Assembly: GCA_011033025.1 (NCBI GenBank)
Contig: WFMF01000003.1
Span: 1,395,483 to 1,459,482, forward strand
Direction: 5' to 3'
From: Beroe forskalii
Taxonomy: Eukaryota; Ctenophora; Nuda; Beroida; Beroidae
DNA length: 64,000 bases
The notes under the pieces are model-generated. The model made no database searches. It was given only the letters and a program-made list of their open reading frames with translations, and was not told the DNA's origin. Position numbers and translations under genes: made by a program. This document shows positions 51,496 to 57,400 of the stretch, piece by piece (positions within the stretch are counted from its first letter, which is position 1; the number at the start of each line of letters is the position of its first letter).

Positions 51496-54400
51496 CTATC
51501 TCATGTGGTAATCGATAGCCTCGTCCAGCTTGGAGTACTGTCCCTCGAACTGCACGTTGATGTTGAAGTCCATGTCTCGTCGGTTCCTGGCGTTCGGCTT
51601 CACGCTGAACGTGCCCTTGATCTCCTCCCCCGCGTTGACCGTCAGGTAGTCCCGGATGTAGAACACGGTCTGCTTCCAGTGCGTGTACGGCGCTTCCGGG
51701 GAGGTCGTGAAGCCAATACGCTTGTGGGACTTGCTGAAGTCGACGCTGAAGTACGACACGAGAGCGTGCACGTAGTCGTCACGACGACACCGTAGGGAGA
51801 AGTCGACTGAGAAGGCGAGGTCTTCGATCTTAATGGTGTACAGGTCCAGTTCCTTGATGATGCAGTGGTTTGATACGATCTGAGGGGGAAGGGATTGAGT
51901 GGGGTTAAGATAATGTGGTAATTGGCTAATCTACACTGGTAATCTACATTTAAACGAATCTATAAACGAATCTTTCAAATTTAAGAAGTAAAAGCAGCTA
52001 CCTGTTTCTGATCGACGACATCCACGAGAGGTTCACACAGGGCAATGTCTTTGATGACGCTCATATCATATCCGTAGACATTCTCCCACCAGTGGATTTT
52101 ACTCTCTTTGTACTCCCGGTCCTCAATGGCACACAGGTACATGGTACCTGCAGATGGAAGTTTGCTACTTTATTAGTGTTTAAGGTACATTTTATTAAGG
52201 TTTATCTTTTCAGGTAGCCACAGGCCCACCCTCGTACGCTAGGTTTTTATGTCGTTCAGGCCCACTTTTTGGAGGAAAAACTTGATCACAAACACAGACA
52301 AATTTGAGACATCACAGGCCCCTTGAGATAATTAATAGAAGTCCATTTGAGAGAGCACTGGCCAATTTGTGACAAAGCATGCCCATTAGGGATGTTCAAA
52401 AAACACTTTTTTCGTCTAATCGCTGCCAATCATTGATTATATTTTGCCTATGGGCATTGCCCATTAATTGATATATAACAGGCTCATTTGAGACAATGCA
52501 TGCCCATTTGATTTTGAGACATAACAGGCGACCAGAGACATAAAAAGGACCGAATGAGACCACATATAATACCCATTTGGGACATAACAGGTCCATTGGA
52601 GTCATCGCAATTCACATGTCAATCTTGGGCATTGAAAGCCCAAAATTTAACCACGACCACTTCTTCTTTCCCAAAAAACTCCATTTAAGACAGCACTGGC
52701 CAATCGGCGACAGTGCATATCCATTAATTGATACATCGCAGGCCCATTTGAGACATGAAAAGGCGCATATGAGACGCATATGAGACCATAAAGACCTGTC
52801 TAAGACAAAACAGGTCAGTTTGAGACAAAATAGTTTAATTGAGACATCCGAGGCCAATCTTGGACATTGCAGACCCAAAATTTCACTGCTCTCTACCCTC
52901 TCTTTTCCAAAAACCCCTCGGCTTCCTAATTAAATACAAAATTTCGAAACCCAGAAAAAAAGCTCGTTCTAGGATGTCAGCAACCAGTGGATCCAGGAAA
53001 GAAAAAACTTAGATCATAAAAATACGTCCTGTATTTTTAGTTGCTTGCTTGATCCATTCTAGGCTAATGCTTTATTCTTAGTAAATATGGTCTAGCATGC
53101 AGCAGATCACGTGCACTAGAAGGTGCATCATCACGTGCACTAGACATTAGACAATAGACATAAATTATTATTATGTGAGAACAGAACATTTTGAAGCAAA
53201 ACTTACTACAACGAGATTTGACAACAGTTTGAAGATGTATATTGTTTGTTTGCAGTTTGTTTGATAAGGTTTCCGCTTTGTTACTTAGAGCTTGCTCAAT
53301 CATGGTTAAGCGGAATATAAGTTCATGTTTATTATTATTATTTTAGTTCATCGAAACGTTTCAAGACTCCCTTACTTAGAGAGCGCGGGTAACTGCCAAT
53401 GTACGTCTTACTAACGAATAGGGAGATCAGCATTCTAGATTGGTAGGTTCCTTACGGACCACATGGATTATAGACGATATGACACGAAATGTGTCATCAT
53501 CTACTTATATGTACTGTATCGTACTCACGCAATTCAACGTAATCCGTAATTCAATGATATTTTTGCCAAATTTTCCTCTGACCGGCAACCAATAGGTTTA
53601 CTCTAACCTCCCATATCACAACCGTTTTATTTACTGCTTGCTCTAATATAATTTCTGATATAGATAGAGATGGAAGGATCACCAAGTACGATTTGGCATC
53701 TCTACGGCGCCTACTCATTCCTCGTCAGCTTCCTTTGCCTCATGATGCATCGCTTCCCAGCCTCCCTCCCTTGGCACGTCACCACTTGGTGGGCCGGAAG
53801 TGTCATGTACGCTCTGATTCTTAAGCAGATCCCTCCCCCGTCCAACCCCTGGACTTTCTCAGTGCTGCTTACCACAGGGATCCTCCTGGCTCCCGGCGTA
53901 TTGGGCTGGAATACCAAGCTGTCGGATGCGGCTACAGAGCGCTCCAACATGGTTATAGGGCTCTGTAATATGCTCAATATTTGGTCTGTCGTTCTGGGGA
54001 ACTTGCTGATCGGGGGTTCTGCAACGTACTATCTGAAACTGGTGGAGCCCTTGGTTGTTTTTGTTGTGGAGATGTTGGTCTTTGGCAAACAATCGTTATC
54101 CATGAAGCATGTACGGAACGGTTCCATTTCAATTATTTTGCTGATCATCTTTAATTTTACATTCCATTACACGGGACACAACAAACAAAAAGCCGACTTT
54201 TTGTCTCATAGCACGCTTATTGGCATGATTTCTGTCGTATCGGTGGCAATTAAGGTTGTTTTAGGTGCGAAACCTTCCAGTGCAAAGAATTCAAACATCG
54301 AGAGCATTCAAAGTTCAGCATTGTTCCTCTTTCGATCAGCATTCGGTTTGAAGTGCATTCTTTCTTTTGCCATACTGTCTCTGTTCCTCGAATTACATGT

Positions 54401-57400
54401 TTTGACTGATATGACCACTGTGATTGTAGTCATAACCATGCTGATAATGTCACAGAATTTGTACAACTATGCAAGTCTTGTTGCAAACCTCAATATGTTA
54501 GCTGGAGAGTATGTCAATGCTAAGATCGTAAAGAGGACCCTAGTCCTTCTTTCACTTTCCCTCAGCGCAGGAAGCATCTGGTCACATTTCAGGCTTGACG
54601 GTGTAACTTCGCCACCTAAGGTTTCGTACCAAAACCAATCTCAAGTACGAGAACGAATCGTGCTTTTCGGTGCCATTGGTAGGCATAATTTCGGGGATCT
54701 TTTGATGGCAGAAGTGTTCGAGGAAAACCTGAAGAACCACTGCGATATATCAGGGTTTGACGTTGTCTATGCGGACCTGCTGCCTCGAGATATGCAGGAG
54801 TATGGGGGCCAGAGAGTACAAGGCATTACAGAACTAATGGACAGTTCCGTGAAGACTCACGTTGTCCACGTTGGGGGGGACACTGGCGGAGTCAGCGTCA
54901 AGTCAGCTTTGACGATGATACAGCCACAAAGTGACCTTCCCATACTCCACACTCCTGCTTGGAAAAGGTACAAGTCGAGAACCAACGCACCAGCTTACAT
55001 CCTTAGCAAGTCCTTATTCAAGACTCCAGGCCGTTTTATCGCCAATACTCTCGGTTCGATTGATCGTGCAGAACAATTCTTGACTGATTTTGATTTTGTA
55101 AGCACTCGGGATGCCCGAGACGAGCAGCACACATTTGCTCCTGACAGTGTCGTAATAATAAAAGGACTGTTTAACGAAAAGATAGCAGCACACAAGCCTG
55201 CATTTTCAGACTACATAGCAGTACAATTTCGTAGTTCTGGCGTCAATCTACCACTGATTGCTCCTCAGTTGGCGGAGTTGATGAACAGAACAGGGCATGA
55301 AATCGTGTTTTTCCGGGCCGGAGCTGCCGCCAGACACGACCTCTTACCTCCATACGTCAAAGTTAAGGACATCATGGTCAAGGCAGGAGCAACGGAAGAA
55401 AACATCCACATATTCAGTGGTCTCGATATTTGGGACATAACTTCTCTAATTGCCCACTCAAAGCTGTGTATAGCGACCAGTCTGCATGTCCGCATCATAG
55501 CCTTTTCCTATTCCGTGCCTCGTGTGACATTCAACCCTGCAGCTAAACATAGCAGCATGATAGGAATGTACGATTTTGCTGCTCAGTCTTGCCACTTGCG
55601 AGCTGTATCCGATGATCTCATCTTCGAAGCTGCTGTGCAAAGTTTGGCGTGTAAGGAGTACAGAGATGATAATAACAGTGCCAAAGCTGTGACAATGTAC
55701 CAGAAAATGTTTTGGAAGATGATTGATACTACGAAATTGTGTCCAATTACTAAATGAATTTTATCTCGAAAGATCCTATGCTCAATTATATTTCAAAACA
55801 ATTTGCCCCATTTCGTATGGCCATGGAATGTAAAAAGGTTCCAGAAAAGGGATAAAAGAATGACAGAAAGTTCAAAAGCTCCACTACAATGCTGTACGAT
55901 TTATTTTCAAGCTGACTGGCAAGAAAAATACTCTGAATTATTAATTTAATTATGATGTATAGGAATTTTGAGTGACATGCTCAATTTCTACATTTCTATA
56001 ATTTGGTCACGCTTGAATGGCAAAATATGCCTTAGGGTTATGTTAGTGATTGTCTTAGAGTGTAATTAATGCTTATAATTTATCAATTTACTATTATACA
56101 TATCCTCGATTGTATTTTGCTTTGCAAAATATTCTACTAATTTACCACAATTTAATTCTACATTGTTTCTACATTGCTTCTGCATTGTTAAAAAGTTACT
56201 AAGAGTAAAAATTATGCTCAAATATAGTCATTGACCATATTATATGCACAAAGAAAAATTTTCTGTATCTCAGCCTCTTGATGAGATAGAAGCATAACTC
56301 GTCAATCTATGGCTATACCCCCCCTTTTCATACCATCAGAAAACGAGAAGTGTCTTAGACATTCAGTTGCAAACAGCAAAGGTTTGCAATCCCCAAATTT
56401 GCCTTTCTAAATAACAGGCAAAAAACTTTAGTTGGCCCACTTTTTCAATTTGTTGCTAGACATGATCAGGACGTCTACTGCATATGAACTGGTTGACTAC
56501 AATCTATAACCTAGCAAGGCTTAAGGTTTTTTTCAGGTAGCCACAGGCCCACCCAAGGATGCTGGTTTTCGTCGTAGTTCAGGCCCACTTTCCCTTTTTT
56601 CCGCCACAGGCCCACTTTTTGGCGAAAAACTTGATCACAAACCCATGTCATTTGAGGCATCGCAGGCCAATTTGAGACAATATACATTATACATGCCCAT
56701 TTGAGATATCGTAGGCCCATCTGAGACATGAAAAGACGCAAATGAGACCATAAAGACCTGTTTAAGACAAAACAGGTCAGTTTGAGACATCCCAGGCCAA
56801 TCTTGGCCATTGCAGACCCAAAATTCCACTGCCCTTTATCCTCGTTTTTTAAAAAAAAAAAGTCCTCGGATTTCGAAATTAAGCACAAAATTTCAAAATA
56901 CAGAAAAAAAAACTCGCTCTAAGATGCCAGCAACCATTGGATCCAGGAAAGAAAAAACCTGGCATATAATCAACAGGTAGATGGTCTCATACAAAGCGCG
57001 TATACCAGGTTGATGGGAACACACTTCATAAGCATGGCATGGTAAAATGTAAACAGATAGTAAAATGTAAAACGCAGAAGGTGGTAGAGGTTAGAGCTTT
57101 CTGAGTGTACAGCAGTACACATTCCATCATGAGTATGGTATCATTAAAGAATAGGGACGAATTAAGAATTTAAAAGGTGCCCAGCAATGCTCGGCAAAGA
57201 GGGAATAAGTTTTTGAATGTTAGGACGTATGAAGAGGAGGAGCTCCTAGTTTCAACTACTGCACATAGAAATGTTTCTTCTGCTTAGCTAAAGATTACAA
57301 TTACCTTTGTCAGGGAAGAGAAGGCCTCCTTCGGCGAGCCATTTGTCCCGGGCAAAGAGGACAGTCTCCAACATGGACTCGTAGAGTAGACAGTAACCCA

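Follow-up and report, generated by a model that had tools for sequence, protein, structure and literature searches.

A ctenophore gene family joining a transporter-like domain to a polysaccharide pyruvyltransferase domain: a candidate one-polypeptide system for glycan pyruvylation

The 64-kb window, the whole stretch of ctenophore DNA that was analyzed, contains an intronless gene (53670..55757, plus strand) encoding, in this order, a transporter-like half, a short linker and a pyruvyltransferase half. Its translation runs through a single exon without a break for 695 residues and then reaches a stop codon; the ATG is preceded by an in-frame stop, with two codons between them. This is by far the longest stop-to-stop frame in the window, the runner-up having 312 codons. 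The protein carries the motifs YLKLVEP (121-127), [11 protein letters not shown] (333-343), STRDARDE (478-485) and SLHVRIIA (604-611), and the uninterrupted, motif-bearing frame given in the preliminary description is thereby borne out. The gene is nested on the opposite strand within an intron (52148..57304, minus strand) of a PRMT1-type arginine methyltransferase gene; both donor and acceptor of this intron were read, and the adjoining exon (57305-57500) matches PRMT1 at 2e-26. Bacterial contamination is excluded by the 2.1-Mb contig, the position of the gene inside a PRMT1-type intron whose splice sites are regular, and the presence of copies on three other contigs. Wnt marks the genome as that of an animal, a ctenophore. 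A sponge host was rejected: a silicatein-motif pattern matched once, in a stretch that did not read like a cathepsin, and the mitochondrial contig indicated a ctenophore.

The same genome encompasses five related copies in all, of which three are intact, one is frame-shifted at the start and one is decayed. The first ~55 codons of the C569 copy are in another frame, and the two copies of the C295 pair are about 12.3 kb apart. A protein search identified 12 relatives (P0002-P0013) that cover 92-99% of the fusion protein at 46-57% identity, and the order of the two halves, transporter followed by enzyme, is the same in the paralogues and in these 12 near-full-length proteins. Comparison of the fusion gene with the C569 copy yielded dN/dS ratios of 0.18 (N-half) and 0.20 (C-half), which are rough because dS is near 1.5; both halves are under selection. 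Given the 12 relatives, the four further copies (one decayed) and the low dN/dS in both halves, the frame is more than a chance one, which is also excluded by its length. Alignments A1 and A3 combined the window protein with 12 of the 22 protein-search matches (P0014-P0016 were excluded as short), and A1 additionally included P0017; the 13 family members referred to below are the window protein and the 12 relatives in A3. With the N-half alone as the query, the protein search returned three short fragments, and P0001 had no match among viral contigs.

The C-half (residues 328-695; 54651..55754, plus strand) is a polysaccharide pyruvyltransferase domain of the PF04230 family, with a GT-B-like fold. 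The Pfam match has an E-value of 5.8e-9 (36.7 bits, compared to the curated cut-off of 25.3), which confirms the pyruvyltransferase domain proposed from the motifs, and PF04230 was detected in all 13 members at E-values up to 10 (best, 5.9e-14). Three residues that are invariant in 13 of 13 members are putative ligands of phosphoenolpyruvate (PEP), with the roles of their CsaB and Pvg1 counterparts taken from the literature. These are R480 (55107..55109, plus strand; CsaB R148, Pvg1 R217), which is also invariant in alignments A2 and A4 and is equated by motif only; H606 in TSLHVRI (55485..55487, plus strand; CsaB H308, Pvg1 H339); and K626 (55545..55547, plus strand; CsaB K328, Pvg1 K361), the latter two placed by a weak alignment with 5ax7 (E-value of 0.21). 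Pvg1 R337 (CsaB R306), a proposed PEP contact, is not conserved, with serine (S604) in 13 of 13 members.

The N-half (residues 1-310; 53670..54599, plus strand) is modeled as ten long helices forming a domain resembling the triose-phosphate translocator (TPT) and other drug/metabolite transporters (DMT). The structural search with this model returned drug/metabolite transporters, rather than the mismatch that the preliminary description had named as refuting, with the solved TPT structure at the top (14% identity over the aligned residues; the alignment underlying the model included TPT rows). PDB entries 5y78 and 5y79 are the triose-phosphate/phosphate translocator of Galdieria. The N-half ends on the counterpart of the ninth TPT helix. 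An extra N-terminal helix (residues 5-28; 53682..53753, plus strand) lies almost wholly outside the TPT match, which begins at residue 27, whereas the tenth TPT helix is missing, with a hydrophilic linker (about residues 310-327; 54597..54650, plus strand) in its place according to the model comparison and the hydropathy scan. The absence of the last TPT helix could impair transport.

The hydropathy scan, which is insensitive and overlooked TM10 of P0017, showed five to nine segments ahead of the enzyme in 16 family rows and six in the window protein, compared to ten helices in the model. No Pfam transporter family was found in the N-halves of the 13 members, and PF03151 was detected in none of them at E-values up to 10. 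The A1 profile, which includes P0017, matched TPT in PDB at 1e-5, a match that was gone when P0017 was omitted, and the family profile without P0017 retrieved no translocator from PDB. The hhalign comparison of the N-half with TPT was not significant (probability 0.2; 33 of 200 decoys equally good). Because the N-half blocks of the full-length model stand at 33-57, the fold assignment depends on the model whose alignment included TPT rows; from that model, we infer a DMT fold.

The TPT substrate sites come into register with the family when all rows are supplied. K123 in YLKLVEP (54036..54038), K195 (54252..54254), Y265 (54462..54464) and K288-R289 (54531..54536), all on the plus strand, are the candidate counterparts of TPT K204, R266, Y339 and K362-R363, respectively. 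The spacing between Y265 and K288, 23 residues, is identical to that between TPT Y339 and K362. In TPT, R266 and Y339 are further residues of the substrate site. According to PMC11661312, K204 recognizes phosphate; K362 and R363 are phosphate-recognition residues as well. The five aligned sites, which were picked after the resemblance to TPT had been noticed, are invariant in 13 of 13 members, with lysine replacing R266. In a decoy test of K123, Y265 and K288-R289 with four family and eight TPT rows, none of 100 decoys had all four scored sites. With P0017 and P0024 as the sole added rows, three sites fell out of register under all four settings; with four family rows, register was lost under one of the four. 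TPT H185 and T188 are not conserved, with isoleucine or valine in all 13 members.

With the last TPT helix absent and one extra helix in front, the enzyme would face the lumen. By this homology topology, the C-half is predicted to be luminal, not cytosolic, the outcome that had been named as refuting. A surplus of sequons and invariant cysteines in the C-halves of the family favor the lumen as well; the C-half of the window protein has two sequons only.

The ctenophore family is not the only such fusion. In the dinoflagellate Symbiodinium natans, the protein annotated as 'PPT1' (P0017) combines a clear, ordinary TPT domain (PF03151, 5.8e-60) with the same kind of enzyme, its C-half being 36% identical to that of the window protein, and P0024 combines the C-terminal part of a TPT (PF03151, 1.3e-15) with such a pyruvyltransferase. 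Unlike the ctenophore N-half, both match Pfam, and both have a hydrophobic segment after the translocator in the hydropathy scan. The claim that such a fusion is undescribed in animals therefore has to be qualified: a PF04230 fusion does occur in an animal, a ctenophore, but the architecture is not unique, and these other fusions strengthen the idea of coupling. A single clade of all fused rows was not rejected (p-AU 0.0505), so that one or two fusion events are both compatible with the data. The first tree included 22 rows (without P0007-P0009, P0011 and P0013-P0016), and the second one 17 (additionally without P0004, P0010, P0023, P0030 and L005); the viral rows L030-L034 were in neither.

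We consider it probable that the ctenophore protein is a one-polypeptide glycan pyruvylation system, in which the N-half imports PEP and the luminal C-half pyruvylates a glycan. The N-half would belong, as a divergent member, to the triose-phosphate/PEP translocator branch of the DMT superfamily and bring PEP from the cytosol into a secretory compartment, probably swapping it for phosphate. The C-half, a ketal pyruvyltransferase, would put pyruvate on a hydroxyl pair of a glycan sugar, and the phosphate freed would be exported again by the N-half. The PEP cargo, phosphate exchange, Golgi location, activity and acceptor are all what we infer. The coupling of PEP import to its use within one protein, as originally suggested, is partly supported: the enzyme family, the TPT-like model and the luminal homology topology speak in favor, the lack of a TPT profile match and the replacement of R337 against.

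It is unlikely that the N-half is instead a TPT-type carrier with a different phosphorylated cargo (a triose or hexose phosphate, a nucleotide, or just phosphate), and that the donor or reaction of the C-half is something other than PEP-ketal transfer. The loss of TPT H185 and T188 and the serine at the position of R337 would fit such a carrier, but the PEP-site histidine and lysine are invariant, and in P0017, an enzyme of this kind is fused to a translocator annotated at its source as PPT1. The missing last TPT helix, along with the dependence of yeast Pvg1p on the separate Pet1p/Pet2p (PMC6801904), could alternatively point to a non-transporting multi-pass anchor that holds the enzyme in the Golgi while PEP enters via a separate transporter. 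Five invariant substrate sites would be needless for an anchor, however, and dN/dS of the N-half is as low as that of the enzyme half, which makes this reading decidedly unlikely.

Bacterial CsaB/WcfO-type enzymes are cytosolic. According to the literature, they act on lipid-linked sugars, and a cytosolic C-half pyruvylating such a sugar would be analogous. Charge counts (10 vs 5 for the window protein) constrain the topology only modestly and leave room for this arrangement, but with the N-half ending on the ninth TPT helix, the sequon surplus and the invariant cysteines in the C-half, we regard it as very improbable.

The proposed importer-pyruvyltransferase shares features with several known systems. 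Fission yeast offers the same model, a Golgi pyruvyltransferase, Pvg1p, using PEP imported by Pet1p/Pet2p (PMC6801904), with separate genes in yeast as opposed to one polypeptide in ctenophores; similarity to Pvg1 is weak (profile E-value of 0.21), and R337 is absent in the ctenophore family. TPT (5y78/5y79, PF03151) is the best fold match, from which the ctenophore N-half differs by the helix changes, the fused enzyme and the lack of a Pfam match. The bacterial CsaB/WcfO enzymes, which use PEP as the donor, share the PF04230-type domain with the PEP-site histidine and lysine, but have lipid-linked acceptors and no transporter half. Animals of other phyla make pyruvylated sugars of known chemistry: the epitope of sponge glyconectin 1 is Gal4,6Pyr-GlcNAc-Fuc, and Aplysia has pyruvylated glycolipids. 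The literature consulted, in which such sugars on sponge and mollusc glycans have been reported since the early 1990s, names no animal gene or enzyme for them, and within the literature searched no paper combined the words ctenophore, glycan and pyruvyl.

Tentatively, the ctenophore one-protein PEP importer-pyruvyltransferase may be the first gene family in animals to which glycan pyruvylation can be assigned, with a TPT-type domain and the enzyme joined at least twice, in ctenophores and in dinoflagellates, in different helix arrangements (TM9 last plus an extra first helix, perhaps replacing TM10, or a helix after TM10), each of which would put the enzyme in the lumen beside the transporter exit. 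The family provides a concrete, expressible candidate enzyme for animal glycan pyruvylation in an early-branching phylum. If transport and transfer indeed occur in one chain, donor import would be physically coupled to donor use in the secretory pathway, and the fusion family leads one to expect that comb jellies have an anionic surface chemistry resembling that of sialic acid.

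The fusion gene belongs to a real, selected ctenophore gene family that unites a transporter half like the triose-phosphate translocator (TPT) and a pyruvyltransferase in one gene. The uninterrupted 695-codon frame reported in the preliminary description is borne out by translation (53670 to 55757, + strand, without a stop), and all the motifs named there are found in the product; an in-frame stop lies upstream of the ATG, two codons apart, and the next longest stop-to-stop frame within the 64-kb window has 312 codons. A protein search with a cut-off of E<=0.001 yielded 22 matches. 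Twelve are near-full-length relatives (P0002-P0013) with 46-57% identity that align over 92-99% of the query; three are shorter (P0014-P0016), and the remaining seven (P0017-P0023) reach a coverage of 42-51%. The entries P0002-P0016 are nameless and come from ENA, JGI and LGN.

The same genome carries further copies: one on contig C569 (63% to the window protein), with its initial ~55 codons in a different frame; an inverted pair ~12 kb apart on contig C295 (53-58%); and a decayed copy on contig C324. Between the window and C569 copies, the two halves are under selection of about equal degree, with dS near saturation (N-half, dN 0.277, dS 1.517; C-half, dN 0.280, dS 1.416). For the young C295 pair, the values are dN 0.026 and dS 0.128 in the N-half, and dN 0.018 and dS 0.034, with few changes behind them, in the C-half. 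One member of this pair differs from its partner in the enzyme's best-conserved loop, reading GAMARHNFGD in place of GAMGRHNFGD.

Neither a Pfam search of the N-half nor a profile search of it against PDB, with P0017 (see below) excluded, gave a match. Nevertheless, parts of the substrate site of TPT can be recognised there: tyrosine and lysine are 23 residues apart both in LYNEVS...KR of the solved TPT and in LYNYAS...KR of the window protein. Besides the phosphate-recognizing residues, we take R266, Y339, H185 and T188 to be further TPT sites. The phosphate-recognition residues themselves are K204, K362 and R363, according to PMC11661312. When 18 family rows were aligned with nine TPT rows using MAFFT, five sites (K204, R266, Y339, K362, R363) were all aligned in four of four settings, with the exceptions of P0033, which has D at the tyrosine, and P0024, which lacks the first half. 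Three sites were misplaced in every one of the four settings when P0017 and P0024 were the only rows added, and one of the four settings failed with an input of four family rows and the TPTs. Four sites were matched by the real family and by none of 100 decoys with columns shuffled within each helix and loop (3 of the 100 matched three sites), the sites for this comparison having been chosen after the resemblance was already seen. In the alignment, H185 and T188 are not conserved in the fusion family.

The predicted structure of the N-half, with TPT rows present in its input alignment, matches TPT over residues 27-307, ending at TPT residue 381, just ahead of the final hydrophobic stretch of TPT; accordingly, the window protein has an additional helix (5-28) ahead of TM1, and TM9 is its last helix. 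Because the chain ends on TM9 and Golgi transporters of the DMT superfamily have both termini cytosolic, the C-half is predicted by homology to be luminal. A hydropathy scan, insensitive in that it missed TM10 of P0017, detected no hydrophobic 19-mer between the KR motif and the enzyme in any of 16 family rows, one in P0017 and two in P0024. By eye, P0017 retains TM10 and has one helix added, so that its enzyme half would likewise end up luminal. Across 13 related rows, sequons number 56 in the C-half (34.6 expected from shuffles) and 22 in the N-half (32.8 expected), and four C-half cysteines are invariant in all 13, which would support the luminal placement; in the window protein itself, two sequons lie in the C-half and another in the linker. 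Counts of positive charges point to this orientation in all 13 rows, although they include the KR pair, which is probably membrane-embedded. Import of PEP and its use on the spot is, with somewhat better than even confidence, the best explanation for the fusion protein. In the literature library searched, no paper united ctenophore, glycan and pyruvyl, and among the papers listed by a search on pyruvyltransferase and phosphate translocator, the translocator term occurred only in one on red-alga phosphoglucomutase. Pyruvylated sugars of animals are reported from sponges and Aplysia.

Similar fusions occur elsewhere. P0017 of the dinoflagellate Symbiodinium natans (PPT1 in its source) combines PF03151 (5.8e-60) with the pyruvyltransferase domain PF04230, P0024 combines the C-terminal part of PF03151 with PF04230, and P0020, a second kind of fusion, has the same domain joined to a family 61 glycosyltransferase (PF04577). 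In a C-half tree of 22 rows, the window family is placed beside P0021 and an Anaerolineae MAG rather than P0017 and P0024 (95/96), and again beside P0021 and the MAG with 17 rows (89/94). A single clade of all fused rows, as a common joining would leave, was not rejected in a test of the C-half tree (p-AU 0.0505); we tentatively prefer two separate joinings of transporter and enzyme. A single one-motif scan of bacterial and archaeal genomes yielded 16 stretches, among them one relative. In IMG/VR, relatives were found on three contigs, one through 26 residues only; the two large ones, viral contigs of 150,766 and 121,275 bases, carry stand-alone C-half relatives neighboured, by eye, by glycosyltransferase- and sulfotransferase-like genes.

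The fusion gene has no intron and lies within an intron (52148 to 57304, - strand, regular donor and acceptor) of a PRMT1-type gene on the opposite strand, whose preceding exon matched PRMT1 structures at 2e-26, with PRMT8 a close second. The intronless copies could have originated by retroposition or by acquisition of a gene of bacterial type. Both flanks of the fusion gene (~52210-52990 and 56540-56970) carry repeats that look alike by eye and are rich in CAGGCCCA/GAGACAT.

The 216-Mb assembly (1134 contigs; the window is C358:1395483-1459482) contains 11 matches to Wnt domains, a mark of animals, and is thus an animal genome. Its single COX1 match, strongly diverged when read with code 4, is on contig C1134 (13,339 bases), where the initial 10 kb has 17.4% G+C with its frames >80 codons all on one strand, and ARAGORN with the bacterial code found no tRNA. 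PMC6991124 describes Beroe forskalii mitogenomes of 13,357, 13,339 (Bf201606) and 13,338 bases, with 17.3% G+C, code 4 and no conserved tRNA. At least 153 Peptidase_C1 matches, many spanning the near-whole domain in a single open frame, indicate a large, seemingly often intronless cathepsin family. The window also contains ~65 tandem copies of a 40-base unit (27852-30392) and a row of three tRNA-Met genes (47182-48067, - strand). Two copies of an MQQGMPP-repeat coding stretch, on opposite strands (11855-12217, +; 30743-31126, -) and with similar neighbouring frames, suggest a large inverted duplication.
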